A stretch of 20,318 nucleotides of DNA from Stentor roeselii (lineage: Eukaryota > Ciliophora > Heterotrichea > Heterotrichida > Stentoridae): contig RSEH01000425.1 in assembly GCA_006503475.1 (NCBI GenBank), forward strand, positions 1 to 20,318, read 5' to 3'. Positions 1 through 18,800 of the stretch are shown here, one piece after another. The stretch's first letter is position 1, and each line of letters starts with the position of its first letter. The notes under the pieces were generated by a model. That model was given only the letters and a program-made list of their open reading frames with translations, ran no database searches and was not told the origin of the DNA. Position numbers and translations under genes: made by a program.

Positions 1-2985
1 CTCTTGTTCTTGATGTCATCAACAACTTTGTTCCATCTTCTCAAGGCTTTCTTAGGAATGTTGTTGAGTCCGTTGATCAAGCTTTGAAGGCAGCCTTTGA
101 TTTTGTTACCTCCTCCGATGACTCTTTGAGAAGCGTCGCGAGTTGTTCGTTTGATGATTCCTTCGAGGCAGCCTTTGACTTTAAGACTTCGGATGTTGTC
201 GAAGAATGACTTGTTCTTAAGACCTTCCAAGTATTTCTTCCATTTTTCCATTGCAGTTCGTGGCATTCTGAGCATGGTCGAATAGATTTTACGGATTGCT
301 CCTTTGACTTTACTTCCATCTCCTACAATCCTTTCAGTAGCATCTCTCAAAGTTCTTCTTGCAACCTTGTCAAGTTTAGCCTTAAGTTCTCTCGACTTGA
401 CTCCATCAAGGAATTCTTTATTATTAACAGCTTGGACATACTTTCGCCATCTATCAAAAGCTTGTTTTGGTTTTCTCTTAAGTAGTCCATCAAGTCTCTT
501 CAGAGTTGATCTTAATCCGGCAGACATAAAGATAAGACCCTTGAGTCTTTCAGCAGCTTCTTTCATTGTTCTTCTTTGAATTCTTTCAAGTGAGTTTTGA
601 AGTTTGGCAGATCTTGCATTGTCATAAAGTCTCTTGTTCTTGATGTCATCAACAACTTTGTTCCATCTTCTCAAGGCTTTCTTAGGAATGTTGTTGAGTC
701 CGTTGATCAAACTTTGAAGGCAGCCTTTGATTTTGTTGCCTCCTCCGATGACTCTTTGAGAAGCGTCACGAGTTGTTCGTTTGATGATTCCTTCAAGGCA
801 GGCTTTGACTTTGAGACTTCGGATGTTGTCAAAGAATGACTTGTTCTTGAGACCTTCCAAGTATTTCTTCCATTTCTCAATTGCCGTCTTTGGCATACGT
901 AGCATTGTTGAATAGATTTTCTTGATGGCACCTCTAACTTTGCTTCCATCACCAAGGATTCTTTCAGTGGCATCTCTCAGTGTTCTTCTTGCAACTCTAT
1001 CAAGTTTTGCTTTAAGTTCTCTGCTTTTCACGATGTCAAGGAATTCTTTGTTGTTAACTGCTTGGACATACTTCCTCCAATTATCGAAAGCCTGTTTAGG
1101 TTTTCTCTTGAGAATTCCATCAAGTCGTTTCATGATAGCTCTGATATGAGGAGCAGCGAACATTAATCCTTTAACTCTTTCAGAGGCATCCTTCATAGTT
1201 CTTCTTTGGATTCTTTCAAGCGATAATTGAAGTTTAACAGATCTGGCATTATCAAAGAGTTTCTTGTTCTTGATATCATCAACAACTTTATTCCATCTTC
1301 TCAAAGCTTTCTTAGGAATATTGTTAAGTCCGTTGATCAAGCATTGCAGGCAGCCTTTAATTTTATTTCCTCCTCCTAATACTCTCTGAGAAGCATCTCT
1401 AATTGTTCTCTTGACCATTCCTTCCATGCAGCTTTTTACTTTAAGACTTCGGATGTTATCGAAGAATGACCTGCTCTTGAGTCCTTCTAAGTATTTCTTC
1501 CATTTATCCATGGCAGTCTTCGGCATACGGAGCATAGTTGAATAGATTTTCCTGATGGCACCTTTGACTTTAGAGCCGTCTCCAATAATCCTTTGAACAG
1601 CATCTCTCATAGTTCTCTTCGGAACTTTAATCAAAGCAATGAAAAGTTTCTGACTTTTAACACTATCAAGAATTTGATTTTTCAATATGGCTTCTCGATA
1701 CTTCCTCCATTGTTTCATGGCTTCTCTTGGTTTATTCTTAAGCAAGTTATCCAAGTACTGTAAAGGTCCTTTGACTCTAGGTGGAAGAGTAGTGACTTTG
1801 ATCTTCTCAGCAGCGGTCTTAATAGTTCTCTTGCAAAGGTTTTGAAGAATTGACTTAAGTTTAAAGCTTCTTGCATTGTCGAAGAGTTTCTTTTCTTTCA
1901 TGTCTTGAACTGCCTTTGCCCAACTTCTTAAAGCTTTTCTTGGAATGTTATTTAATCCCAGGATTAAACTGGTCATTGCTCCTTTGATACGACTTCCTCC
2001 TCCTATTACTCTTTGAGAAGAGTTTCTTGTTGTTCTTTTAACCATTCTTTCTAAGAGGATTTTTAGTTTGAAACTTCTGGAATTGTCGAAGAAACTCTTG
2101 TTTTTTAGATTTGATAGGTATTTCTTCCATTTTTCCATTGCAGTTCGAGGCATTCTAATCATAGTCGAGTAAATTCTTCTAATAGCTCCCTTAACCTTAT
2201 CCCCATTTCCAACAATCCTTTGAACAGCATCTCTCATAGTCCTTCTAGGAACTTTATTAAGTGCAACAAACAATTTCTGAGTTTTAATTCCATCAAGCAT
2301 CGCTTTGCTCTTAACAAGATTATTAAATTCTCTGAACTTATCAAAAGCTTGTTTCGGTCTTCTTCTCAAAAGAGCATCAAGTCTTTTAATAGTATTAACA
2401 ACATGAGGAGCAGCAAAGACATGTCCAGAGATTCTTTCAGTAGTTCCTTTCATAGTCCTTCTATGAATCTTTTCAAGTTTATTCACCAATTTAAACGACC
2501 TTGCATTATCAAAGAGTTTCTTATCACGAATATCTTGAACAGCTTTACTCCATTTCCTCAGAGCTTTCTTAGGAATATTGTTAAGTCCATTAACAATGCA
2601 AGTGATAGCGCCTTTGACTTTTGACCCTCCTCCAATGATTCTATGAGCAGCGTCACGAGAAGATCTTTTAACAAGTTTTTCCAAGTTATTCTTAAGTTTA
2701 AGACTTCTGACATTATCAAAGAAGTCTCTTTTTTTAACACCTTCAAGATACTTCTTCCATTTATCCAAAGCGACTTTAGGCATTTTCCTTCCAACACTAT
2801 AAATGCTCTTCAAAGCACCTTTCACTTTACTTCCACCTCCTGTGATCCTCTGATATCCATCACGTAATGTTCTATGAGTCACATTTTTGATTCGATTATA
2901 AAGTTTCTCTGCTTTGACTCTTGATAAAAGTTCTCCTTTTTTAACTGAATTGTTGAATTGTCGCCATTTTGCAATAGAATCTCGA
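1..2985 (-). repeat. Higher-order coding repeat: 69+69+72-residue modules, ~630-bp period
   Basis: Trp anchor codons (CCA on the plus strand) start at 2964, 2757, 2550, 2127, 1920, 1707, 1500, 1293, 1077, 870, 663, 447, 240 and 33. At 2334 the anchor is Phe (AFDKF). Steps are 69, 69, 72, 69, 69, 71, 69, 69, 72, 69, 69, 72, 69, 69 residues. Three module types alternate. Type A begins W-[RK]-[KE]-[YF] and has a G[DN]G turn. Type B begins WKKYLEGLKN, has GGG[NS] and ends NGLNNIPKKALR. Type C begins W-x-K and has RRTMK and LKR.P.QAFD. Every module has a conserved F/L-x-x-x-[KR]-S segment and an R[RT]T..A..R core. The array continues off the left edge. Confidence 0.93.
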
Positions 2986-5900
2986 ATTCCTCTTTCAAAA
3001 GACTTCAAAAGGTTCATCACAGGTGCCCTTGCCGCTGTGATCGCATCAAAAGTAATAGCTTTAAAGCCTGTATTCAAATGAGGGCGTAACACCCTGAATA
3101 GTCCATTTTCGAAGTTCTTTGCATCAGCTCGTGCAGAGCGAAGTTTAGATTTATGTAAATCTTTCTTCAATGCAGCCTTCTGGGTGTTAAGTTGTTTAAC
3201 AGTGTCATCAATAACCGACTTTCTCCAGACATTAAAAGCGAATTGAGTGTCTCTTTGCAAGTTCTTTGCAAGATTGGTCAAATAAGACTTAACCAATTTT
3301 TTACTTCCAACAATTTTCCTGAAGCCAATTGCCATGCGAATTCTTAGAGCTTTAAAAATAGCGTCAGTGAGTTTATGTGCGTATATCGTCGGGTTAAGAT
3401 TTTTAAAGAAACTTCTGAAACCTCTTCTGTACTCAACCAACAACAACGCTTTCCAACTTTTAATGATATTTGCAAGTCCTTTATCAATTTGCATTTGACG
3501 ATATCTTCCAGCTTCATTAGTCAAAACATTTCTCCAAGTGAAAAAGCCTCTTTCGATGTCACCTGCGTATTTTCGAACATAAACACTCCAAACACGGCCT
3601 AAGACAATTTTTGGGTTAGGGAAAGCTTTAGCACCTTGGACTAAGTCAGTAAATCTTTCTCGGAATTTATTGTCCAGGGCGAAGACGAATTTGGTGATGG
3701 ATTGAATTCGTTTTATGATTATTAAAGCGTTTTTCTTTTCTTTCCAGATTAGAAAAGCGTCTCGGAAGTACATGTCTGTGTTTTGAGCTGCTCGGAAGAT
3801 GAGGACTGCCATTCTTCTGTGATGGTTTCCGAAGTTGTAGAATTTCCAACGGGTTAGAGCTGAGTCGAAAAGGTGGTTCTTGATTGTTATTAGTTTTTTT
3901 ATTGTTCTTCGCATTATTGCGTCAGCGTCTTTGATTATACGTGTTGGGTGGTAGATCTTTTTAGCCTTTGATGCGAATATTCGCTGAAGGGTGAATATCA
4001 TTCCTAGCATTTTTCGTTTACGGTCTTCGATGTCAGCTAGTTTTATGGTTTCGTGCCAGAGGCCGAGGGCTGAGGTCAGTCGGCTCTGCGGGAACTTTGA
4101 CAAGTACAAATAAAGATGTTTCTGTCCTTTAACAATGGCAGTCTGAGTAGGTATCTTCGCAACCTGATGCCACATAGTGAAAGCCGAAGACAAGCTAGAC
4201 CCTTCAATTCTTGTGTTAAACATTTCTGAAGCTCTGAACGCTCGATGAAGAGCACTTGTAATTTTCTGTCTTTTTTCCGCGAAATTGTAAAACTTCCATC
4301 TGCTCATCGCATTGTCAATCAAGTTTGTTTTGATTAGAATGAGTTTCTTGAAATACCTTCTCATAATAGCATCAGCGTCTTTAATGATTCTTGGAGGATG
4401 GAAGGCTCTCTTGCACTTGCTTGCAAAGATTCTCTGCAAGGTTGTGATCATTCCGAACATTTTATTCTTTTCATTGTCTTTCTTTTGAAGTTCAACCATT
4501 TCCTTCCAGCTTACTACAGCGCTTTTCAAGAACTTTTGAGGGAATTTGGAAAGGAGGGCAAAGACAAACTTTTTCATTTCAAATAGTCTTTCTTTCACGA
4601 CAGGGATCTGTATCGGGTCCTGCTTGACTCTAGACCATTTGCTAAACCTCAAATGCATGACAGCCTGCAAGTTCTTACAGAAGTTAATCAAAGCCTTAGT
4701 CAACAAACCATCTCGACCCTTACTTGCTTCAATTGGAGTCACAGCAGATTTTGCAGTATTTCTCAGTCCAGTTGCAAGGGCAGCAAGGAACTTCTCGACT
4801 TTAACTTTCAATTCATTTTCTTTGTTTTTATTGTAAATCAACTTCCAGAGTCTGAAAGAATTGTGAAGTCCTGATTTGCTTAATTTGAACAGGTTTCGAA
4901 GAAGGACGAATCTTTGATTTTCAACAGCTGATTGCACGTAGTCGTGAGGAACTGCATTTAAAGCGGTGGTTTTTTCGTGAAGTTTCATTTTAAGTAATGC
5001 GATTTTTGGAAGAACTTTTTGGATCACGCTGTTTTCAACTAGGTTGCTGAAGAGCTTGTTTGTCACTGGGTTGGGTGTAGACTTGGCAGAGCTTTGCCAT
5101 TCCCTAAGAGTACTCTTAAGTTTATGCTCATAAACTGAAAAGATTTTAGTAATTGACAACTTGCGAGAAGTTCTATCAGATCTAAGAATCGCTGCACCTT
5201 TCCAAGTAGTCAAGAGTTTCACAGGCATTTCTTTACGTGCTTGATTGATAGAAGACATGTAGTTCAGCATCATTTCCAATTTCAATTTACCTTCGTCGCT
5301 GATTCCGACATTTGCATGTTTTAAGGAACTTAGGCGTGTTTCTTCTGAAATCGCTGAAACATGTTTTGACTTGTCGCTGATGTTTGTTATGATGTTGTGC
5401 ATTTCGCGCTTTGTCAGACGGACTCGCTTGGTTTTCTTTGTTTTTATGTGAATTTCTTCTTCTTCGATCTCCTCGCGTTCCCATTCGTCGTCGTCCCAAG
5501 TTGCCGTTTGCCATCTTTCAACTAACAGGTATCTCAGGTAGTAGAATCTCAAGTTGGCTTTTTCAAAGATCTTACTAAGCAAAGCTCTATTTTTGGCCCA
5601 AATCTGATACCTCTGGTCAATCCAAGTATTAAAAGCATACATGACTCTTTTCTTCCTAATAGTGATTTCAGCAGCTTTAACAGCATCCCTGAGTCTATTT
5701 TCCCTATCAATCTGCGCTTTAACCTTAAGTTTCCATCTCCAAAACCCAGTCTGTTCAAACCTCAACGACCCCATATTGACCATATTAAAAACAGCCGGGT
5801 ACATCTTATGCCTCCTTTCATACTGATTCAAAGTTTTCCTCTTATACTTCAAAGCATATTCATCATCCCCATAAACACTCGGTTCCCTATCAGGTAATAA

Positions 5901-6425
5901 CGAATTACACTTCCACACTCTACAAGTTTTCTCCATATTAATACCCAAAGCTCCTTTAAGTTGAGCTACCATTTTCGCACATTGCAATCTTTTAACTTCA
6001 AGTTTGTGAAGATCTGTCTGATCCTTCATCTCCTTTCTATGTTGTTCTGTCTTTATTGCTCTGAAACTTGTTCCTAAAAGTGTAAGTCTCTTCAATTGAA
6101 TCGTTTGCATTGCGTGGAAGAGCTTTGCTGCTTTTTGGGATGATGGATGATTTGAAAAGCACAGATGTGCCAACTTTGGAGGAGGTATTGGCTTGCCTGA
6201 TATCAGCTGCTTGACGTATGTTGAGAAGTTGTTGAAGTCGTCAGTTCCTAGTCGCTTTTGCTCGCGCATCTGACTTAGGGTTATGCCCACTGAACGCAAG
6301 TTGGACTGGTTAGCTGTGTTGAGCCTTTCGAAGAGTGTTTTGCTTAATTTTTGGTGCTTTTGAGAGTCCCCAGGCCTTCCTGAAAGGACTTTCTCGAGTA
6401 AGCTAGTTATACTCGGAGCTTCCAT
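1..6425 (-). CDS. Giant Sfi1-like W-anchored repeat protein (3'-partial)
   Basis: One uninterrupted frame opens at the ATG at 6423-6425 (context TTATAAAATAATGG) and is still open at base 1, giving 2,141 residues without the C-terminus. No intron is needed. The protein is rich in Lys/Arg. From about residue 230 it carries A-x-x-x-W-[KR] anchors such as AFNTW, AVVSWKEM, AMSRWKFYNF, AFNVWRK and AMEKWKKYL. In the N-terminal half anchor spacing alternates mostly between about 70 and 27-43 residues. From residue ~1150 it becomes a regular 69/69/72 clock. An acidic patch followed by a basic one lies near residues 308-330. The anchor resembles the Sfi1 centrin-binding consensus, and 69 is about twice the usual ~33-residue Sfi1 spacing. 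Giant spasmin-binding proteins of this general kind have been reported in the contractile heterotrich Spirostomum. A role as a centrin/spasmin scaffold in myonemes or basal-body fibres is inference. It could instead be another long helical scaffold. Confidence 0.85.
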   Translation of the reverse strand, partial: MEAPSITSLLEKVLSGRPGDSQKHQKLSKTLFERLNTANQSNLRSVGITLSQMREQKRLGTDDFNNFSTYVKQLISGKPIPPPKLAHLCFSNHPSSQKAAKLFHAMQTIQLKRLTLLGTSFRAIKTEQHRKEMKDQTDLHKLEVKRLQCAKMVAQLKGALGINMEKTCRVWKCNSLLPDREPSVYGDDEYALKYKRKTLNQYERRHKMYPAVFNMVNMGSLRFEQTGFWRWKLKVKAQIDRENRLRDAVKAAEITIRKKRVMYAFNTWIDQRYQIWAKNRALLSKIFEKANLRFYYLRYLLVERWQTATWDDDEWEREEIEEEEIHIKTKKTKRVRLTKREMHNIITNISDKSKHVSAISEETRLSSLKHANVGISDEGKLKLEMMLNYMSSINQARKEMPVKLLTTWKGAAILRSDRTSRKLSITKIFSVYEHKLKSTLREWQSSAKSTPNPVTNKLFSNLVENSVIQKVLPKIALLKMKLHEKTTALNAVPHDYVQSAVENQRFVLLRNLFKLSKSGLHNSFRLWKLIYNKNKENELKVKVEKFLAALATGLRNTAKSAVTPIEASKGRDGLLTKALINFCKNLQAVMHLRFSKWSRVKQDPIQIPVVKERLFEMKKFVFALLSKFPQKFLKSAVVSWKEMVELQKKDNEKNKMFGMITTLQRIFASKCKRAFHPPRIIKDADAIMRRYFKKLILIKTNLIDNAMSRWKFYNFAEKRQKITSALHRAFRASEMFNTRIEGSSLSSAFTMWHQVAKIPTQTAIVKGQKHLYLYLSKFPQSRLTSALGLWHETIKLADIEDRKRKMLGMIFTLQRIFASKAKKIYHPTRIIKDADAIMRRTIKKLITIKNHLFDSALTRWKFYNFGNHHRRMAVLIFRAAQNTDMYFRDAFLIWKEKKNALIIIKRIQSITKFVFALDNKFRERFTDLVQGAKAFPNPKIVLGRVWSVYVRKYAGDIERGFFTWRNVLTNEAGRYRQMQIDKGLANIIKSWKALLLVEYRRGFRSFFKNLNPTIYAHKLTDAIFKALRIRMAIGFRKIVGSKKLVKSYLTNLAKNLQRDTQFAFNVWRKSVIDDTVKQLNTQKAALKKDLHKSKLRSARADAKNFENGLFRVLRPHLNTGFKAITFDAITAARAPVMNLLKSFERGIRDSIAKWRQFNNSVKKGELLSRVKAEKLYNRIKNVTHRTLRDGYQRITGGGSKVKGALKSIYSVGRKMPKVALDKWKKYLEGVKKRDFFDNVRSLKLKNNLEKLVKRSSRDAAHRIIGGGSKVKGAITCIVNGLNNIPKKALRKWSKAVQDIRDKKLFDNARSFKLVNKLEKIHRRTMKGTTERISGHVFAAPHVVNTIKRLDALLRRRPKQAFDKFREFNNLVKSKAMLDGIKTQKLFVALNKVPRRTMRDAVQRIVGNGDKVKGAIRRIYSTMIRMPRTAMEKWKKYLSNLKNKSFFDNSRSFKLKILLERMVKRTTRNSSQRVIGGGSRIKGAMTSLILGLNNIPRKALRSWAKAVQDMKEKKLFDNARSFKLKSILQNLCKRTIKTAAEKIKVTTLPPRVKGPLQYLDNLLKNKPREAMKQWRKYREAILKNQILDSVKSQKLFIALIKVPKRTMRDAVQRIIGDGSKVKGAIRKIYSTMLRMPKTAMDKWKKYLEGLKSRSFFDNIRSLKVKSCMEGMVKRTIRDASQRVLGGGNKIKGCLQCLINGLNNIPKKALRRWNKVVDDIKNKKLFDNARSVKLQLSLERIQRRTMKDASERVKGLMFAAPHIRAIMKRLDGILKRKPKQAFDNWRKYVQAVNNKEFLDIVKSRELKAKLDRVARRTLRDATERILGDGSKVRGAIKKIYSTMLRMPKTAIEKWKKYLEGLKNKSFFDNIRSLKVKACLEGIIKRTTRDASQRVIGGGNKIKGCLQSLINGLNNIPKKALRRWNKVVDDIKNKRLYDNARSAKLQNSLERIQRRTMKEAAERLKGLIFMSAGLRSTLKRLDGLLKRKPKQAFDRWRKYVQAVNNKEFLDGVKSRELKAKLDKVARRTLRDATERIVGDGSKVKGAIRKIYSTMLRMPRTAMEKWKKYLEGLKNKSFFDNIRSLKVKGCLEGIIKRTTRDASQRVIGGGNKIKGCLQSLINGLNNIPKKALRRWNKVVDDIKNK
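3744..4605 (-). repeat. 450-bp (150-residue) internal duplication in the giant gene
   Basis: Two adjacent segments of the giant protein align with a 450-bp offset. Anchor Trp codons at 4506 and 4296 match those at 4056 and 3846. Both copies contain a TLQRIFASK stretch, a RIIKDADAIMRR stretch and end in RWKFYNF. The following spacer differs by 8 residues (4296-4170 versus 3846-3744). The copies are clearly more diverged in DNA than the 630-bp array, so this looks like an older duplication. Outer limits are approximate; a weaker third copy of the opening segment may start near 3720. Confidence 0.8.
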
Positions 6426-7020
6426 TATTTTATAATATAGACCGTCCATTTAAGGTCCTGAAGTTTAAATTTTAGCTTAATATGGAACATTCGTTAAGAG
6501 TGAACTGAGAATTCGATAGTTGGAACTTGGGTTTTGGGTTTTAATTTAGAAGATTTCTTGAGGGATTTTAGGGGGTTTTGGAAAAATTTAAGAAATTTTT
6601 GGGGCGTTGAGGAAGCGTTTTTGGGTTTAGAAGAATTTCTCACAGTTCTCTCATTTCTCAAACATTCCCTAATAAATCTCTCAAAACCTTCCTAAAAAAC
6701 TTTTTCAAGATTTCACAAAAAATTAATAATCTCCTCAATCCTCAACCAAGAAACCCCAAATTTTCCAGCCCTTGACATCCAAAACTTCCCAACTCATTAT
6801 AAATACCTCAAAAATGACCCTACAAAAAAATCAAGAAAATCAAAAAATTTTCTAATTTATCAACCAAATCAAATTCTCATCCTTCCAAAAAATCTCCCTA
6901 AAAAAACCTAATCATTTTCCAAACAATCAGACCCCATCAGTCTCCAAATTTCATATCAATCCAAAAAATCCTCTTCCACAATTCACTACCCTTTATTCAA
7001 ACCTATCGAAATTTCGATAA
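6426..7020. promoter_or_regulatory. Divergent intergenic region between giant gene and snRNP gene
   Basis: No coding frame is supported in these 595 bp, which must hold both promoters. The plus strand is G/T-rich and C-poor from about 6520 to 6630, with several GGGTTTT-like runs. It becomes C/A-rich and G-poor from about 6640 onward. Each gene therefore has a C/A-rich, G-poor leader on its own sense strand. A TATAAA-like word lies at about 6799. Which elements are used cannot be told from sequence alone. Confidence 0.6.
7004..7019. promoter_or_regulatory. 16-bp perfect palindrome abutting a start codon
   Basis: TATCGAAATTTCGATA is its own reverse complement and ends one base before the ATG at 7021. 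It could be a dimeric transcription-factor site or an initiation-region element. If transcribed it would put a self-complementary stretch directly before the start codon. Its function is unknown. Confidence 0.5.
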
Positions 7021-7700
7021 ATGTCCTTAGAAGACGGAAACGAAACCCTTTACATTCAGAACCTGAATGAAAAAATAAAGCCAGAGGGTAAATTTAATCA
7101 GACATGAAGCACTTCCTTCATCAACTTTTCTCTCATTACGGTTCAGTCCTCGAAGTCAACATGAAATCGCAATACCGAATGAGAGGTCAAGCTTTTATAG
7201 TCTTCGACAGTAAAAATGAAGCAGAAAACGCGATGCGTTTACTTCAAGGTTATTATTTCTACGGAAAGTCGATGGTGATTGAAACATAGAAAATCTCTTT
7301 AGCTAACAATAAATCTGATCAAATTGCAAAGAGAGATGGAATTTTTGTACAAAGGGCTGAAGACTTTAGAGAGAAAAAAAGGGAAGACTTTTTTAATCGA
7401 CTTAAATTGAAGAACTCGATTAAAAGAAGAGTTGATTTGAAAGGACTTTCAGGAATGTTTGAGTCTAATCATGTGCTTTTCTTGGAAAGACTTGAAAGTG
7501 CTGTTAGTGAAGATTGCTTGGAAGACCTTTTTGGACTTTATCCTGGGTTTAAGGAAGTCAGGCTTATTTCTGAGAAGGGAGTCGCTTTTGTAGAGTTTTA
7601 TGAAGCTGCCTCGGCTTCGGTTGCTTTGGCTGGGTTGAATGGGTTTAAAGTTTCACCTACTTGTCAGTTTTTTATCACTTATGCCAAAAAGGACAGCTAA
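7021..7700 (+). CDS. SNRPA/SNRPB2: U1A/U2B''-type spliceosomal snRNP protein, two RRMs, two tiny introns
   Basis: Spliced from three exons (7021-7087, 7102-7274, 7290-7700), it encodes 216 residues and ends in TAA. RRM1 starts with RNP2 LYIQNLNEKIKPED and has RNP1 RMRGQAFIVF followed by a YGKSMKISLA strand. A basic linker follows. RRM2 begins NHVLFLERLE and contains PGFKEVRL and VAFVEF, both typical of the U1A/U2B''/SNF family, ending in YAKKDS. The family binds the U1 and/or U2 snRNA stem-loop in the nucleus. The 216-residue length and short linker are closer to U2B'' than to animal U1A. Ciliates may have a single SNF-like protein doing both jobs, so I do not choose between them. Both introns are placed by matching the RRM1 alignment and frame. 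It converges on the WD40 gene with 5 bp between stops. Confidence 0.92.
7088..7101 (+). other. 14-nt intron (apparent)
   Basis: GTAAATTTAATCAG. Removing exactly these 14 nt joins ...IKPE to DMKHFLHQLF across the codon GAC and restores RRM1 helix 1. The exon frames differ by 2 mod 3, so a 15- or 16-nt intron cannot be fitted here. If retained, TGA at 7105-7107 stops translation. An assembly indel in an A or T run would turn this into an ordinary 15-nt intron. Confidence 0.75.
7275..7289 (+). other. 15-nt intron
   Basis: GTGATTGAAACATAG. It lies after the codon ATG. Splicing yields YGKSM-KISLANNKSDQIAK, which matches the last beta-strand and tail of the U1A/U2B'' RRM1 residue for residue in spacing. 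The intron's last three bases are an in-frame TAG, so retention terminates translation. The alternative reading of TAG as a sense codon adds five extra residues and fits worse. Confidence 0.9.
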
Positions 7701-7705
7701 TTTAG

Positions 7706-8707
7706 TTATTCTTCTAAATCTAAGGATTCTATGGGAGCTTCACCGTAGGTAAAGACTTTTACTGTGCCGTCTGATGATCCAACAGCCAACAATTCCGAAG
7801 AATTAGCAAAATCAACCGAATAAACCGACTTAGCAATATTCCCAAGCTGTGAAACCACACATCTTCTCTCAGCCTCAAAAATATAAAGTTGAGTAGACCC
7901 AATTCCGCCAACAGCCCAATATTTTCCATTATCCGCTTTACTAAACTGTGCAGTATAAGCCATACAAGACCTTCCTTGAGTAGTTAAATTAGCACTAAAG
8001 CCACATCTTCCATCAGACATGGTCCAAAGTTGGACTTGTTCCTCAATATTATAACTTCCAGCTAAGATAGTATCGCCTTTGACATCTAAACTATCTCCAT
8101 AAACCCTAGGTCCATAAAACGACCTAATAACTTGGGTGTTCCTCATATCCCAGATGAGAATATTATTATCCCACCCTCCACTCAAGATATAATTATGGTC
8201 AATAAACTTGACACTCATTATTCTGTTATCATGTCCTAAGTGTTGTTGGTCTCCTCCTGTCAAATCTGCGATTTTTTCCTTTGTGCCTTCATCGAATACC
8301 TTTATTGACTTGTCACGGCACCCTACGGCAAAGTAAGTCCCTTCAGTGTTGTAGTCTGAACAAAGGGCCTGGTTGTCTGGAATGCGAAGGGAATGTAAAA
8401 TTTTACCTGATGATGCGTGCCAATGAAGAATTGCTCCGTCGCAGGTTATGGCTGCTAATACGTTTTTGGTCTTGGCTAGACCTTTGTCTGGACGCCATCG
8501 AACTGAGGTTACTGGGTAGGTCTCGGCTTTCAACCGGCAGTTCATTGTACGGATTATTGTGCTGAACTTACCGGAGTATAACTTTACTGTACCGTCTGAA
8601 CACCCTGCGGCTAGATGTGAGTCATCCGGACTCCAACGAACCGAAAAGACTTCAAAATCAGCAGGAGCCGTAGAATGAACTTGAGACAACACTTTTTCAG
8701 CCTCCAT
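7706..8707 (-). CDS. WD40-repeat protein, seven-bladed propeller, unassigned family
   Basis: It encodes 333 residues ending in TAA. Seven blades can be read in order: VRWSPDDSHLAAGCSDGTVKLY, VRWRPD with ITCDGAILHWH, FAVGCRDKSIKVFD, VKFIDHNYILSGGWDNNILIWD, TILAGSYNIEEQVQLW, GKYWAVGGIGSTQLYIF and VYSVDFANSSELLAVGSSDGTVKVF. The propeller fills almost the whole protein, with no extra domain, signal peptide or membrane segment, so it is probably a cytosolic or nuclear scaffold. I do not recognise the subfamily. Blade 4-5 (SGGWDN...IWDMR) recalls uncharacterised WD40 proteins of protists and invertebrates. The start at 8707 opens just before blade 1, and the next in-frame Met would cut into it. No introns are present. 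It lies 27 bp downstream of the coiled-coil gene on the same strand. Confidence 0.9.
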   Translation of the reverse strand: MEAEKVLSQVHSTAPADFEVFSVRWSPDDSHLAAGCSDGTVKLYSGKFSTIIRTMNCRLKAETYPVTSVRWRPDKGLAKTKNVLAAITCDGAILHWHASSGKILHSLRIPDNQALCSDYNTEGTYFAVGCRDKSIKVFDEGTKEKIADLTGGDQQHLGHDNRIMSVKFIDHNYILSGGWDNNILIWDMRNTQVIRSFYGPRVYGDSLDVKGDTILAGSYNIEEQVQLWTMSDGRCGFSANLTTQGRSCMAYTAQFSKADNGKYWAVGGIGSTQLYIFEAERRCVVSQLGNIAKSVYSVDFANSSELLAVGSSDGTVKVFTYGEAPIESLDLEE

Positions 8708-8734: not shown

Positions 8735-9547
8735 TCATCTAGGTCTTCTTTTAACATTGATAAAAGGAGGAGTATGCATCTTGTCATACTCTCTTTCCAT
8801 ATAAAACTCCTGCTCCTCCTTCAAAGTCTCTTCACAAAGCACACACATCTTCTCAGCAGCGTCACTAGTCTGATTAAGCAACATTGACTTCTGCTCAATA
8901 CTTTTCGACAAGTGTTCTTTAGAAGCTTCCAACAATCCCATTAAAATCGCGAGTCTTTTTTCCTGCGCTTCAGTAACCGACTTCAAAGTAACATGTTCAG
9001 CAGGAAGATGTTGCAAAGTAAAAACCGATCTTTGATACTTCATTTTCAACTCTTTTTCCTCTCTAATCGCGATTTTCGTAGCTTCTGAGATTTTCATCAA
9101 CTTTTCAATTCGAGTTTCCGCTTCTTGTATCTCAAGTTCCTTTTGTGCAGTGATTTTTTCAATCTCAGCTCTGATCTCTTGGTTCTTTTCTTCTACTTTC
9201 GCGAGTTCCTGTTCTTTTGCTGTGATTTTTGCCATGTTTTCCTCATGATGAGCTTGGTACTTATCGCTTAGGTCTTGTTTTCTCTTTTGTAAAGTCTTGT
9301 TTTTTGAAGTTTGCTTGTCACAAGCTGCTGTATTTTTTTCAATACTGAGTAAAAGTCGGGCACTGTTTAAAAGTTACTTTTCTTCACTGAGGACTTGAAT
9401 GTCGATTTTTTTCTTAGCGATTATTTTGGCGGCTTCTTGAATGAGGAAGGAATTTTTCATCTTTTCTGCAGGTTTTTTCCACTCGTTGTGACTTTTGTCC
9501 ATTCCTTCGATTGCTAGAAGACGTGAAGCGAGCTCTTTTTTTATCAT
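8735..9547 (-). CDS. Coiled-coil protein, unassigned, one 15-nt intron
   Basis: Exons 9547-9378 and 9362-8735 join in frame to give 265 residues ending in TGA. Nearly all of it is heptad-like coiled coil, for example NKTLQKRKQDLSDKYQAHH and then AKEQELAKVEEKNQEIRAEI. A CVLCEE motif and a basic, Pro-containing tail (NVKRRPR) close the protein. No family was recognised; ciliary, centrosomal or vesicle-tether coiled coils are all possible. The ATG at 9547 lies 6 bp from the start codon of the divergent RBBP4 gene. A later ATG at 9502 (MDKSHNEW) is a plausible alternative that would leave 51 bp. A longer upstream extension to 9670 would run antisense through the RBBP4 N-terminus and is unlikely. 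Confidence 0.8.
9363..9377 (-). other. 15-nt intron
   Basis: On the minus strand this reads GTAACTTTTAAACAG. Without splicing the frame stops at the TAA inside the GTAA donor. With splicing the coiled coil continues as VLSEEN-ARLLLSIEKNTAAC into the downstream frame with no break. Length and ends match the 15-nt intron of the snRNP gene. Confidence 0.9.
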
Positions 9548-9553: not shown

Positions 9554-10762
9554 ATGAGCTTTTTGGTGAAGGAGGATGAACTGGAAGAGACTGATGAGCA
9601 GGTGGTCATTGAAGAGTATAAGATTTGGAAAAAACATTGCCCGTTTTTGTATGATACTGTCATCACTCATGTACTTGAATGGCCTTCACTTACTGTTGAG
9701 TGGGGATCTGGAAGGGAATGCAATCCTAATTCGGATTTTTCGGTTCAGAATCTGGTTCTTGGAACTAATACTGGAGGTGCAGAGCAAGACTTACTAATAG
9801 TAGGAAAAGTGAAATTTCCAATGGAACAATCTTTGATAAGCGGAAAGATCTACCTAGACAACACGAAAGACGTAGGAGGAATAGGTCTTCTCTCAAAGAC
9901 CGAAAACAAAATAGAAGTAAACGCGCGAGTAAACCACGAGCGAGAAGTCCTTCGTGCTCGAATGATGCCAAAGCAAGAGCACTTCATAGCCTGCAAAGGT
10001 GCATCAGGTCTAATAAGTGTCTACGACATGAAAAAGTACACAAATAAGTCAAACCTTAACCCAATGATGACCTTGACAGGTCATTTGAAAGAAGGCAAGG
10101 CTCTAAGTTGGGCTTCTCATAAGCCGCCTTATTTGGCATCAGGGGCACTTGACGGAGTGGTCAATGTTTATGACACTACCACTGGAGCCAATTCGCCTGT
10201 CTTCTCAGTTCAAGCTAATGAGTCAGGGGTTGAAGAAGTCGCTTGGAATGACGCTGGAATTTTAGCTTCTGTTGGAAGAGATCATAGGATTTTACTCTGG
10301 GATCTTAGGCAGGATTCACCGGCTACTTCGGTTGAAGGATCGACAAGGGAGATTATGGCTGCTGATTTTTCAACGGCTCGGGCGGAATTACTTGCTACTG
10401 CGGGAAAAGATAGAATGGTTAGTGTTTGGGATGTTAGGAATCTTTCAGGGAGGGTGGCCAGCTTCAACTCTCATAAAGACTCCATAAGCGCTATCAAATG
10501 GGAGCCATACGGAGGTTCTTTAATCGCAAGCGCCAGTTGGGACCGGCGAGTCCACATCTGGGACCTGGCAAGGGTCTCCGCTGCTCAGACTCCTGAAGAA
10601 GCTGAAGACGGTCCTCCAGAGTTAGTCTTCGTTCATGGCGGTCACACTTCAGTCGTTTCTGACATTGCCTGGAACCCGAATGAAAACCTGACCTTGGCCT
10701 CAGTCGCTGAAGACAACATTTTGCAGGTCTGGCAGATGTCCAACTCAATATTTAACTATTAG
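9554..10762 (+). CDS. RBBP4: RBBP4/MSI1/CAF-1 p48-type histone-binding WD40 protein
   Basis: It encodes 402 residues in one exon and ends in TAG. The N-terminal helix VIEEYKIWKKHCPFLYD and the following THVLEWPSLTVEW are hallmark sequences of the RBBP4/RBBP7/MSI1 family. The late insert EEAEDGPPELVFVHGGHTS and the final SVAEDNILQVWQM are also family signatures. WD blades are visible as LASVGRDHRILLWDLR, LLATAGKDRMVSVWDVR and LIASASWDRRVHIWDL. The family binds histone H4/H3 as a shared subunit of CAF-1, histone deacetylase, NuRD-like and PRC2 complexes in the nucleus. Length is close to the usual ~410-425. The start at 9554 places the helix about 18 residues in, as in animal homologues. Its stop overlaps the stop of the convergent downstream gene by 4 bp. 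Confidence 0.96.
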   Translation: MSFLVKEDELEETDEQVVIEEYKIWKKHCPFLYDTVITHVLEWPSLTVEWGSGRECNPNSDFSVQNLVLGTNTGGAEQDLLIVGKVKFPMEQSLISGKIYLDNTKDVGGIGLLSKTENKIEVNARVNHEREVLRARMMPKQEHFIACKGASGLISVYDMKKYTNKSNLNPMMTLTGHLKEGKALSWASHKPPYLASGALDGVVNVYDTTTGANSPVFSVQANESGVEEVAWNDAGILASVGRDHRILLWDLRQDSPATSVEGSTREIMAADFSTARAELLATAGKDRMVSVWDVRNLSGRVASFNSHKDSISAIKWEPYGGSLIASASWDRRVHIWDLARVSAAQTPEEAEDGPPELVFVHGGHTSVVSDIAWNPNENLTLASVAEDNILQVWQMSNSIFNY

Positions 10763-11229: not shown

Positions 11230-12906
11230 CTAAGTCTTTCCCAGGTACTTCCTCTGAACAGCCTCGACCTGGTCATCTTCAAGGCTGCTTTCACTTCCAG
11301 AGTCATAATTAATTTTCGGTACATAAATCGTATTCTCCGAAGGATTCTCTATTTTCGGTTTCGTATTCGGCAAGGGTGAAGGTTCAGGTGATTTATTACT
11401 ATACCGAAGAGGATTATAATTCTTTTCCTCTTCCCTAATTTTTCCAAAGTGAAACGAATCAGAAGACCCAGAATTACTTTTCCTTAATCTCGGAGTTTCC
11501 CCCTTAACACGATTAGGCCTTGGTAGGTTAAAAAGTTCAGAAGCGTTTGAAATCGACTTCTTAAGTTTCGGAGTTTCATTAAAAAAGTCTTTATTTTCAC
11601 TTTTTCTATTTGGAGTAAATGCATTAGTAGGACGATTTTGAGGAGTATTACTGTAAATATGGGCCTGGAGTTCAAGTATCTGCGCTTGTAACTGAGCTAA
11701 CATTTTACTTTGCTCTTGAATGATTTTCTCTGCTGAAGGGGAGTACATGTGCTTGAAACTATCAGAAGAACGATTTGATAAAGCATTTGAAGGACTTACA
11801 CTTTGTCGAGGAGGCTTTGAATACCCTGGATTCACTGTCACTGGCGTGAATGATTGTAATGGACGTGGAAGGTTCATTGAAATTTCTAAAGATGAACTTG
11901 ACTGGTCTTCTCGAACGAAAGTCGCGTAAATTGGAGCGAAAAGACCGTCTTCTTTGTGAAGTTCTGAACAGAATCGAGAAGTCTTCCAACAAGGGTTACC
12001 TGATGTGCTTGCTTCGAAGAACTTTGGCTTTGATGAGAAGTGAAGGAATAGAAATGCGTTTTCTTCCAGGGATGGAGAAATTTTGTCTTTTATGTTCGTG
12101 TTTTCGATGTATTGGACACAGTTTGCCCAGACTAAAGGATGCATTATTGGACAGGCTTTTGAGTTTTGGCTCTCTGGGATACCTGAAACCCAGATACCTA
12201 CTATTGGGTACTTGTAGGCTAGTGGGTCGGATGGTAGAAGGGGCAGAACTCGTCCAGACTGATCCATAGTCAAATACCCGGCCTGAAACTTATCCCTTTT
12301 ATTCTGAGTAAGTTTAACACTAAGCGGAGTAGAAACAAGTTTCAAAGGAGATATAGGTGTAAACTGAAAGCTAATAGAAGGATAAAGTATTTCACATTTT
12401 ATCTGAAGTTTAGCTGAAGCTTTATCAGCTGCAAATATAAGTAAAGTGCGACAAATATCCAAAGGTTCAATACACTGTTCTCTACTAATCCTCCTTTCAA
12501 TACTTTTCATCATCTTTTCAATCATTTTCTCTTCTGACCTAAGTCTCTCGGCGCATTGCGCCGAGGGTTGAGAAGAAAGGCAAATCAAGTAATCAGCAGG
12601 AGGAATGTTTCGGCCGCGGCTTACATAATGAACTTCTGTGACTTTCAGTGATAAAAAGTGCGCAGGTGAATATTTATAAGCCGTGCACACTAAAGAAGTC
12701 TTGCCTTCTCCACTGTGAAGAGTCCATAAGTCTTGAAGAACCTCTGATGTTATTTTGAATTGAGGCAACATTGACTGCATTCGCAAAACTACTGGCTTGT
12801 CTTGAGGAGATCTACTCCATAACTCGGATATCGTACCTTGAAGAGAAATTTGACGGAAAATAGGAAGAGTTTCTTGGTAGTCTGATGAGACTTCAGTGTA
12901 GCTCAT
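11230..12906 (-). CDS. STIL: STIL/Ana2/SAS-5-type centriole (basal body) assembly protein
   Basis: It encodes 558 residues in one exon, ending in TAG. The N-terminal ~330 residues match the conserved animal STIL N-terminal domain in order. Seen are RGRNIPPADYL (~95-107), a CTP-like FTPISPLKLVSTPLS segment (~185), GYLTMD (~210), then LLPSDPLAYKYPIVGIWVSGI (~225-243), VWANCVQYI (~260) and FLHFSSKPKFFEAS (~290). A short amphipathic coiled coil (KIIQEQSKMLAQLQAQILEL) lies near 390-415, the position and type expected for the STIL/Ana2 oligomerisation coil. The Ser-rich, basic tail follows. In animals STIL recruits SAS-6 to the nascent centriole and is a PLK4 substrate. A basal-body role here is inferred from homology. 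Human STIL is more than twice as long; the protist form lacks the long C-terminal extension. I cannot identify a definite STAN motif. Confidence 0.85.
   Translation of the reverse strand: MSYTEVSSDYQETLPIFRQISLQGTISELWSRSPQDKPVVLRMQSMLPQFKITSEVLQDLWTLHSGEGKTSLVCTAYKYSPAHFLSLKVTEVHYVSRGRNIPPADYLICLSSQPSAQCAERLRSEEKMIEKMMKSIERRISREQCIEPLDICRTLLIFAADKASAKLQIKCEILYPSISFQFTPISPLKLVSTPLSVKLTQNKRDKFQAGYLTMDQSGRVLPLLPSDPLAYKYPIVGIWVSGIPESQNSKACPIMHPLVWANCVQYIENTNIKDKISPSLEENAFLFLHFSSKPKFFEASTSGNPCWKTSRFCSELHKEDGLFAPIYATFVREDQSSSSLEISMNLPRPLQSFTPVTVNPGYSKPPRQSVSPSNALSNRSSDSFKHMYSPSAEKIIQEQSKMLAQLQAQILELQAHIYSNTPQNRPTNAFTPNRKSENKDFFNETPKLKKSISNASELFNLPRPNRVKGETPRLRKSNSGSSDSFHFGKIREEEKNYNPLRYSNKSPEPSPLPNTKPKIENPSENTIYVPKINYDSGSESSLEDDQVEAVQRKYLGKT
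12547..12565. repeat. GC-rich 9-bp inverted repeat inside the STIL gene
   Basis: CTCGGCGCA-T-TGCGCCGAG is a perfect 9-bp inverted repeat around one central base. It is extended by a T/G wobble and a C-G pair on the outside. It encodes part of PSAQCAER in the STIL homologue. Sixteen of the 19 bases outside the centre trio are in or beside G/C pairs, very unlike the surrounding AT-rich sequence. Confidence 0.85.
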
Positions 12907-15865: not shown

Positions 15866-18800
15866 ATGGTTTCCCTGCTTCTTTTATTTTCTCTCCAGTT
15901 TCATTATTCTTCATCTCAGAGAGTCTGGTGCATAGACTCTTCATGCAGTTCATGCACTGAAGGCTACCGATTCATGTCATGGATGTGCCTTGCTAACTGT
16001 CCTTCAGGGTACTATTTATACGGGAATTCCTGTCAAATGAATTCATCAAAACCTCTTTTTTCTTTCAATCCAGGGATTTCTTTGAGTTTTGACGCAAAAT
16101 CAGTTGAAATGTTTTACCATCCTTCAGGTCTTGAGTTTAGAGATCCAGCAAAGCAAAGTCCGATCATGACAAGAGACCGAGGCCTTTACTTTGCAAATTC
16201 AAGTAGTTTGATATCGAATACTTCTTGGATCCTGTCTCCTGAAGTCACTTTAGGAATCACTGTAAGAGTCTTGAAGCAAGGAGTGATTTTTCTTGTTACA
16301 GATGAAGCACAGAAAGTTTTGGAATTTTATGGAAATGAAACTCATTTTATAGTGTCTATACTGTTGTATACTTCGGGGGTGAATAAAACAGAGAAATTAA
16401 CAGTTTCTCATCTGAATAAATGGGTTACTATGTCTTTTTATTGTTACCAATCGAGTGTTGGTTTGAATATTGTCTTTAGTGGTTCTTATAGTTCATTGGC
16501 TTCTTATGAGTTTCGGTATCAGAAGCTAGGACTTAGGTACTCTTTTGGAGAACCTGGAGGAACTACTTTTTCAGGATTTTTGTATGAAGCTTATATGGAA
16601 AATCGGTATATAAGTTTAAAGATTTTGGTCATACCTGATAATTATTGCAACTTCAGTCAGTATTATGTTAATCAAGTGTGCCAGAATTGTGATCAAAACT
16701 GCTCGGATTGGCCATGGTGTATTAGAAGTACTTGCAACCTTTGCTATACTCAAAATTGCTTAGAATGCAAAGATTACTCATCAAGTTCCTGCTTGAACTG
16801 CACAACAGGTCTCCCCAGCTCCTGTGGACTAGGCTATAAATGCCTTGAAGGTACTCCAACTAACTGCACCTTATGTGAAAACGATTACTTAAATATCAAA
16901 GGAGCATGTTCAACCCTACCTTATAACTATGACGTTAATTCCTTAAATATCCCAGTGATAAACGCTAAATTTGTAGCTTATCAACAATATTACGATATTT
17001 TTCAAAGTGGAGCAAATGCATCGACTTATGGTCCTTATAATAAAAGCGAAAATGATGATCCGTTTCCATTGAAATCGAGAGGAATAGGATTTGCTTCAGG
17101 GAAAAAGAATTTTTTACAGAGTAAGTTTCCTGTTAGTTTTAGCCCGGAATTTACGATTATGATGTGGATAAACATTTATACCTCAACACCAGGCTTTACT
17201 TTCGATAAAACGACTCTAAAAATATACTCTTCCACAAGAGGAACATTAGAAATCTTAAACCAAGAAGGATCCATACTCCATACAACCTCTACTTTAACTG
17301 AATCAACCCAAATATGGAGACTTTTTTGGTTAGGAGTTAAAATCGAATCAGATTTGACTCAAATTTTCATGAAGTCAAATTCATATTCACTCCAATCAAA
17401 TGCAACTTCAGGATATTCATTCAGTGACATCAACACAACGATTTATATTGGAAACTTCAACCAAACTACATTCAGAGGAATGATTTATTGGATAGTCATT
17501 TGGCAAACCTTTATAAGTGACTTATCATTTATTAATACACCATGTGGATCTGGCCTTGGAACAACTTGTCTTATTAATTGTAATATCAATGAATTCTATA
17601 GTAACTTTTCAAAAACTTGCGATGATTGTCCTTTAGAATGCAACTTAGGATGCAGTACTTTCGGACAATGTAGTCAATGCTTTCTTAAAAACTGCTCATT
17701 TTGCAGTGACTTTGAAAATAATGCAACTTGTTACAATACATCAAACAACTACTGCTCTCCAGGGCTTAAGTTAACTACAGATGGAAGTTGTTGTCATTTA
17801 AACTGCACTTCTTGTTATGGTGTTCAGAACTTTAAATGCTTTTCATGTAGTTCTGGATTAGTAAGACTAGGTACTTTCTGCACATCAGTTTGTCCTTTAG
17901 GATACTTTAACAACTCTGGAATTTGTGAACTTGTGACTTTGAATGTGATTGACTTGAAACTTGATCAGATTTTAAGCAGGATGTCGAGTTCTTATCTCCC
18001 AGTCGAGTTTGCAGTTGCTAATGTTTCGTTATTTTACCCGAATTTTTCTATTTTTAATCCGATTCCAGCGAAAAGTAGAGGGTATTACTTTGGAATGAAC
18101 TCATCTATGTTGAGTGCTCCTTTTTATTTGAGTTATAATCATTCCATACATATCTGGATTATTAATTTGTCGAATGGGACAATATTTAAAAAGGGGAGTA
18201 ATCAGCTTACTACTACTCGCTTTTACAAATCTACTGGGATTAGTAATATAGGATCTGTTGCTGGGTATTGGCATGTGCTTTCACTTGAAATCTATACTGA
18301 TATTGGTGGAAATGGCTTTACGAGAATCAAGAGAAATGGAAGTTTTTCACATACAAGTACTATTTCTTATAATTTTCTCACAGATTATTCAAATTCATCT
18401 CTTATTTTAGGAAATCCAGTCGAATCTTTCGTTGGATTTATCTATCGAGTTACTGTTTTAAATCAGATAAATTATTGGCCGACTTATTCTGATGTACTTT
18501 CAAATTGCACTTTGGGATTTTTTGAAGCAGAAAATTCTTGCACATCTTGTCTAAACTCTTGTACTAATGGCTGCATTTCAAATAAGACTTGCAACTTATG
18601 CAGTTCACGTTTATGCGAGGTTTGTCAGAATTTTTCTGATAATTTTTGTATGAAATGTGATAATACATCGATATTGGTTAACAATACTTGCTCATGTTTA
18701 AATGGAACTTATTTTAATCAAACATTCCAAAAATGCGAGAAGTGTCCATCATTTTGTGAAGAATGTCTGAATTATACAACCTGTTTAAAATGCATGGAAA

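Follow-up and report, generated by a model that had tools for sequence, protein, structure and literature searches.

The window analysed here is the whole of contig C378 of Stentor roeselii, 20,318 bases long, in an assembly of 44.39 Mb and 522 contigs. Its start is occupied by a single stop-free frame on the reverse strand, which encodes a giant repeat protein and runs off the contig; the other genes are given with it in Table 1. The RRM gene, which we take to be U1A/U2B''-like, has one 15-nt intron and one 14-nt gap. The protein with a STIL N-terminal domain (PF15253, E 1.2e-24) is presumably a homologue of the basal-body assembly factor. Two WD40 proteins were found with Pfam: the one on the forward strand also matches the RBBP4/CAF1 histone-binding domain, and the one on the reverse strand may, as a guess, be a PEX7-like receptor. 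The cysteine-rich frame (at least 1484 residues) has a signal-peptide-like start, many CxxC repeats and no Pfam match; the AT-rich DNA in front of it, about 2.9 kb long, contains no frame of 100 codons or more.

Table 1. Genes and features of the window, with positions on the contig; residue numbers are those of the giant frame.
Feature	Position	Strand	Remark
Giant repeat protein, open frame	3..6449	-	2149 codons, 3' end cut
N-terminal head, residues 9-350	5400..6425	-	alignment of N-termini; limit at residue 350 approximate
Irregular tryptophan-site region, residues 351-1116	3102..5399	-	counts of tryptophan order; 3 partial modules by HMM
15-module tandem array, residues 1117-2149	3..3101	-	HMM; last module cut by contig end
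RRM gene	7021-7700	+	
14-nt intron or gap	7088-7101	+	removal needed to keep frame
15-nt intron	7275-7289	+	in a neighbour gene (RRM)
WD40 protein	7706-8707	-	Pfam
15-nt intron	9363-9377	-	in a neighbour gene
WD40 protein	9554-10762	+	Pfam
STIL N-terminal domain protein	11230-12906	-	PF15253
Cysteine-rich frame	15866-20317	+	cut by contig end

The genetic code looks standard. The in-frame stops of two neighbour genes sit inside 15-nt GT...AG introns; removing these and the 14-nt one gives open frames, and we therefore rejected the reading of TAG and TAA as glutamine. The reading of TGA as tryptophan, as in Blepharisma, was rejected as well: 12 frames of the family described below, delimited with TGA as a stop, hold 448 tryptophans and not a single in-frame TGA. 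The stops of seven giants are TAA (four) and TAG (three). Two sequence patterns for the SSU rRNA revealed no such gene: one had no hit, and the hit of the other is not rRNA according to Rfam. A standard code with 15-nt introns is what is expected of a Stentor-like heterotrich. In an excerpt of PMC10942620, TGA is the rarest stop of Stentor coeruleus (0.01), and Blepharisma japonicum has 0.30 for TGA against 0.84 for TGG, if the columns stand in the order that we assume.

The initial annotation had announced a protein of more than 2,141 residues in one exon, and the uninterrupted frame of 2149 codons agrees with this. Since the paralogues begin at a homologous methionine, we placed the likely start at M9 (codon 6423-6425, by alignment with five of them), which puts the beginning of the protein at position 6425 and leaves 2141 residues. 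The protein is incomplete at its C-terminus, the 3' end of the gene being cut by the contig end. It is strongly basic (net charge +305) and contains 36 tryptophans, 21 of which are followed by K or R. The motif A-x3-W-[KR], for which about 30 anchors had been announced, was counted 13 times (mean of shuffles 0.55, maximum 4), and A-x3-W 21 times (shuffles 2.5, maximum 7). The head region carries a signature near LLE-x-V-L-S-G-R-P-x-D and an acidic tryptophan-rich patch. The absence of any other recognisable domain was borne out, as nothing in the window protein exceeded the Pfam cut-off and the best match was a HAT repeat with E 0.016.

A search of the same assembly for relatives of this protein gave at least 88 matches on at least 16 contigs, C378 among them. 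Three family frames are closed: C118 (4784 residues, with 53 of the modules defined below), C51 (2996) and C513 (1806). Four have lost their N-terminus at a contig end (C436 with 3893 residues, C343 with 1809, C165 with 1950 and C144 with 856), and four their C-terminus (C378 with 2149, C307 with 2680, C432 with 2619 and C323 with 1480). These four N-terminal parts, four C-terminal parts and three closed frames suggest about seven genes. A head bearing the signature is common to six of the seven N-termini, the seventh, C513, being without it. C436, C343, C165, C144, C118 and C513 have a common tail, some 300 residues long and including a heptad-like stretch; C51 has only the first part of it. 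The net charge ranges from +12 to +17 per 100 residues over 12 family frames. On viral contigs we obtained four pattern matches, none of them a relative. Among the titles and abstract openings searched, none describes this family, which is not a claim that it is absent from the literature.

We then described the repeat by an HMM, seeded on the window's own tryptophan-centred repeats and iterated over the family frames. It recognises 305 modules in 12 frames of the genome, 18 of them in the window: the 15 regular modules of the array, in keeping with the 69-residue module that had been proposed, and three partial ones upstream. The period is 69 residues; in the window the modules follow each other in a 69/69/72 pattern, that is, every third module has 72 residues, and there is therefore a super-repeat of 210 residues. 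The 72-residue third module is also present in C487, in most of C436 and in part of C343. After alignment of 297 modules, 48 with more than six gaps were dropped and 249 near-full ones kept. Tryptophan is present in 241 of these, a frequency partly due to construction because the seed windows of the HMM were centred on it. In 237 of the 249 modules it has a hydrophobic partner at W-3 (control 79.6, maximum 97), and in 194 it has hydrophobics at both W+3 and W+7 (control 25.8, maximum 38); hydrophobics thus stand on either side of it, at W-3, +3, +4 and +7. Alanine at W-4 (73%), proline at W-7 (67%) and K or R at W+1 (about 73%) are also frequent, and glycine is conserved in columns 18 (84%), 20 (71%) and 25 (65%).

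The hydrophobicity of the columns has a helical period (P 0.0025 over all 66 module columns). By sub-range, P is 0.003 for columns 1-18 and 0.029 for columns 22-66, and for columns 22-54 none of 2000 permutations did as well. This periodicity and the hydrophobic at W-3 support the initial interpretation. The conserved glycines do not fit one unbroken helix like that of yeast Sfi1. A half-repeat of 33/36 residues would mean twice as many sites and a Sfi1-like spacing; we rejected it, since its z of 1.6 is not significant (1.8 for a 29/40 offset, 2.2 for the helical offset of 7 residues). Stretches of modules from the window were compared with one another five times and gave dN/dS of 0.07-0.17, which is what an array that is translated and under selection should show.

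Of the regular modules of C378, 14 were tested; they are closest to those of C487 (mean best identity 71%) and of C436 (70%), and the last five have counterparts 78-93% identical in C436. As to the completion of the gene on an adjoining contig, which had been proposed as a check, the identity of the modules makes C436 a plausible continuation, giving one gene of at least 6042 residues, but we do not claim this join because no overlapping DNA was seen. Near-copies of the window array, 84-95% identical in DNA over 261-1520 bases, lie on C487 (L028), C400 (L036) and C485 (L043), and a more distant one, of 39-72% protein identity, on C242 (L044). The copies on C400, C485 and C242 and the start of that on C487 contain stops; these stop-bearing copies are decayed or mis-assembled.

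Centrin targets follow the pattern W1xxL4xxxL8 or its reverse, L8xxxL4xxW1, with positions 1 and 4 always hydrophobic and position 8 less conserved (excerpt of PMC8622359). The Sfi1 consensus has the second order, called 8-4-1 below, and the first is called 1-4-8. Along the window protein the two orders succeed one another. Residues 1-1116 contain 22 tryptophans, 14 in 8-4-1 order, one in 1-4-8 and seven in neither; in the array, 11 of the 14 are in 1-4-8 order only, two fit neither, and the one that fits both is the only one of the 14 to have the Sfi1 order. We extended the count to all six genes whose head is intact, placing the beginning of every array manually. Of the 99 tryptophans that precede it, 46 are in 8-4-1 order, 11 in 1-4-8 and 46 in neither; from the array onward the figures are 20, 119 and 47 of 175. 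The Fisher P for this contrast (9e-19) is descriptive, because the gene copies are related. When only V, I, L, M and F are taken as hydrophobic, the array retains 34 of 175 sites in 1-4-8 order and 15 in 8-4-1, with 128 in neither, the contrast being weaker because Y is frequent at W+3 and C at W+7. C51 departs from the rule, with eight 1-4-8 and five 8-4-1 sites among its 33 tryptophans from the array onward.

The same counts were made over 13 frames with controls. Outside the modules, 54 of 146 tryptophans are in 8-4-1 order (control 17.5, maximum 29) and eight in 1-4-8 (control 17.3); inside them, 218 of 317 are in 1-4-8 order (control 35.5, maximum 51) and 50 in 8-4-1 (control 35.3, maximum 52). 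In the near-full modules the 8-4-1 order is at chance, with 24 of 249 (control 25.9), and the 194 modules mentioned above are those which have the complete centrin-target triad W1-x2-L4-x3-L8. This switch of site order along the chain, 8-4-1 before the array and 1-4-8 inside it, is new here.

Is this a Sfi1 protein? The Sfi1 HMM of Pfam (PF08457), which the initial annotation had named as the check to make, matched neither the window protein nor five pieces of three paralogues, nor, with E allowed to reach 10, any of 34 modules taken singly. A Sfi1 profile run against the genome found nothing either; this search is weak, its control being positive in none of 14 genomes. Among solved structures, which include the Cdc31 chains of the Cdc31-Sfi1 entries 2doq and 2gv5, the PDB search gave no match to Sfi1. 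The strict consensus, Ax7LLx3[FL]x2W[KR] (excerpt of PMC5112337), does not occur in 14 frames, and the spacing of about 33 residues with one centrin per repeat was not found, the period being 69/72. The fit to the consensus is partial, through the hydrophobic at W-3 and the K or R at W+1. The claim of Sfi1 likeness finds support in the mostly 8-4-1 sites of the N-terminal half and in the W-3 position, but none in the Pfam and PDB searches or the strict consensus, and in the array the proline at W-7 and the opposite order of the hydrophobics speak against it. Because the sequence tests failed, we did not file the giant protein as a member of the Sfi1 family. One piece of C118 scored 31.2 bits (cut-off 25) for the N-terminal autoinhibitory domain of Ca-ATPases, with E 1.5e-7 for the whole piece and no stretch significant on its own. 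We judged the weak Pfam and PDB matches of the family to be chance or sums over repeats.

Candidate partners were searched for in the same genome with human centrin-2, which gave at least 151 matches (150 of 458 candidates being scored). We retrieved 14 centrin-like loci: 11 are full-length, and L049, L051 and L056 lie on stretches too short and have partial frames. Nine of the 14 fall into two types, five loci ending in KKAFP and four in KRAFP; in the latter type the loops of EF2 and EF4 are degenerate. A tandem pair at C257:147393-149088 (L051, L052) combines the two types. The best PDB matches of one protein per type are caltractin and centrins. In all nine, the residues of the tryptophan pocket (L112, F113, M145 and I165 in human numbering) are kept and the human E148 position is occupied by R, the other five retrieved loci keeping E; this position appears to differentiate XPC from SFI1 (excerpt of PMC8622359). 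The net charge is -8 to -17 per molecule over the 11 full-length centrins. We infer that the two types are partners of the scaffold, or spasmins. Frames of about 450-600 residues account for roughly 80 of the at least 151 EF-hand matches; to guess from this length, they may represent a large family of calcium-dependent kinases.

The window protein is thus a selected, strongly basic, tryptophan-anchored and helix-periodic repeat protein, and its genome holds about seven such paralogues together with many acidic centrins. Our reading, to which we give a probability of about 0.6, is that it may be the N-terminal part of a giant scaffold which lines up centrin- or spasmin-type proteins along a cortical fibre, working in the manner of Sfi1, and which is probably akin to the giant spasmin-binding proteins of Spirostomum. 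The points that we count in favour of such a scaffold are the 305 modules, the tryptophan triad, the helical periodicity, the low dN/dS, the conserved head and tail, the opposite charges and the several copies of centrins; counted against it are the failed Sfi1 searches, the chance level of the 8-4-1 order in the modules, the proline at W-7, the glycines, the lack of a half-repeat and the Ca-ATPase-domain score of C118. Stentor myonemes have been described as fibres of centrin-like EF-hand proteins (excerpts of PMC8511388 and PMC9371601). In the proposed mechanism, a long basic rod would hold acidic centrin or spasmin molecules at its tryptophan sites, each conserved tryptophan occupying the hydrophobic pocket in the C-lobe of a centrin, and neighbouring scaffold molecules would be linked, at their ends or along their sides, through the conserved head and the coiled-coil-like tail. 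Once the centrins bound calcium, the chain would shorten or re-pack (see also PMC13035854, excerpt), probably bending at the glycine-rich columns 18-25 of each module.

The Sfi1-order and array sites may also bind differently, one class being perhaps constitutive and the other triggered by calcium, which is speculative. Calcium improved the binding of a Kar1 peptide carrying the 1-4-8 triad by a factor of 50 or more, it had no effect on Cdc31-Sfi1, and the statements on SAC3 yield no simple rule (all in the excerpt of PMC8622359); that calcium dependence differs between the two orders here is a guess. Pushed to its end, this idea gives a centrin scaffold of two polarities, made of an 8-4-1 N-terminal stretch, a 1-4-8 array, glycine hinges and dedicated centrins with R at E148, in which sites of one polarity would keep centrin bound in the resting state, those of the other would take it up on a calcium signal, and the module would be the unit of calcium-driven folding. 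We regard this complete version as tentative and rather doubtful.

Two other explanations have to be weighed. The protein could be a ruler of basal bodies or ciliary rows, like Sfi1-repeat proteins, placing centrins at basal bodies or oral fibres without contracting. Tetrahymena has 13 Sfi1-repeat proteins, nine of them reported at basal bodies (excerpt of PMC5112337). The window itself contains the STIL_N gene, and the oral-regeneration programme of Stentor includes STIL (excerpt of PMC9371601), but in a eukaryote gene neighbourhood is weak evidence. However, Tetrahymena Sfr1 is small, with 212 residues and three repeats (excerpt of PMC5112337) against the size and module number of C118, and about seven giants together with multi-copy centrins suggest an abundant fibre. 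We consider this ruler unlikely.

The protein could also do without centrin altogether, as a giant helical scaffold that carries calmodulin or some other partner, or as a self-packing solenoid whose tryptophan is a core residue. The lack of a Sfi1 match in any library searched is consistent with this, as are the hydrophobics on both sides of the tryptophan and the conserved glycines, both as in a packed fold, and the HAT-repeat match below the cut-off. The N-terminal autoinhibitory domain of Ca-ATPases binds calmodulin, and the score of C118 for that domain points the same way. These weak matches are nevertheless sums over many similar repeats, and both the 8-4-1 sites before the array and the strongly positive charge are in line with a rod that holds acidic partners, which makes a protein independent of centrin distinctly improbable to us.

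The centrin or spasmin scaffold can be compared with several known systems. Zhang et al. (Sci. Adv., 2023) reportedly described GSBP1 and GSBP2, giants of the contractile heterotrich Spirostomum, as a backbone for hundreds of spasmins; by this description, there are two proteins there against about seven here. To yeast and human Sfi1 our protein is alike in its tryptophan anchors, F or L at W-3, K or R at W+1, amphipathic helix and tandem repeats, and in the mostly 8-4-1 order before the array; it differs in that the array has a period of 69 and not 33 residues, the proline, the 1-4-8 order and the glycines, and in that the family has neither a Pfam or PDB match nor the strict consensus. A further counterpart would be the Sfi1-like centrin-binding protein of the Paramecium infraciliary lattice, reportedly described by Gogendeau et al. 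in 2007. That lattice is a contractile cortical network of Sfi1/centrin filaments served by many centrin genes (excerpt of PMC5483020). The 1-4-8 peptides of XPC and Kar1 share with our modules the spacing W-x2-hydrophobic-x3-hydrophobic, but they are single sites in unrelated proteins, whereas dozens stand here in tandem with an extra hydrophobic at W-3 (excerpt of PMC8622359). The SFR family of Tetrahymena, Sfr1 to Sfr13, is by its description likewise a ciliate family of 13 Sfi1-repeat members, and differs in the shortness of Sfr1 (excerpt of PMC5112337).

Finally, calcium-driven contraction proceeds without ATP and is among the fastest of cell movements. To our knowledge, its scaffold proteins are known in few species. 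If our reading is true, this genome would hold a set of about seven giant scaffolds, built on a defined 69-residue module with one nearly invariant tryptophan, and two types of centrin, each at several loci. From such a set, one module peptide and one centrin would form the smallest unit open to test, and the change of site order within the protein suggests in concrete terms how resting and triggered binding could be kept apart.
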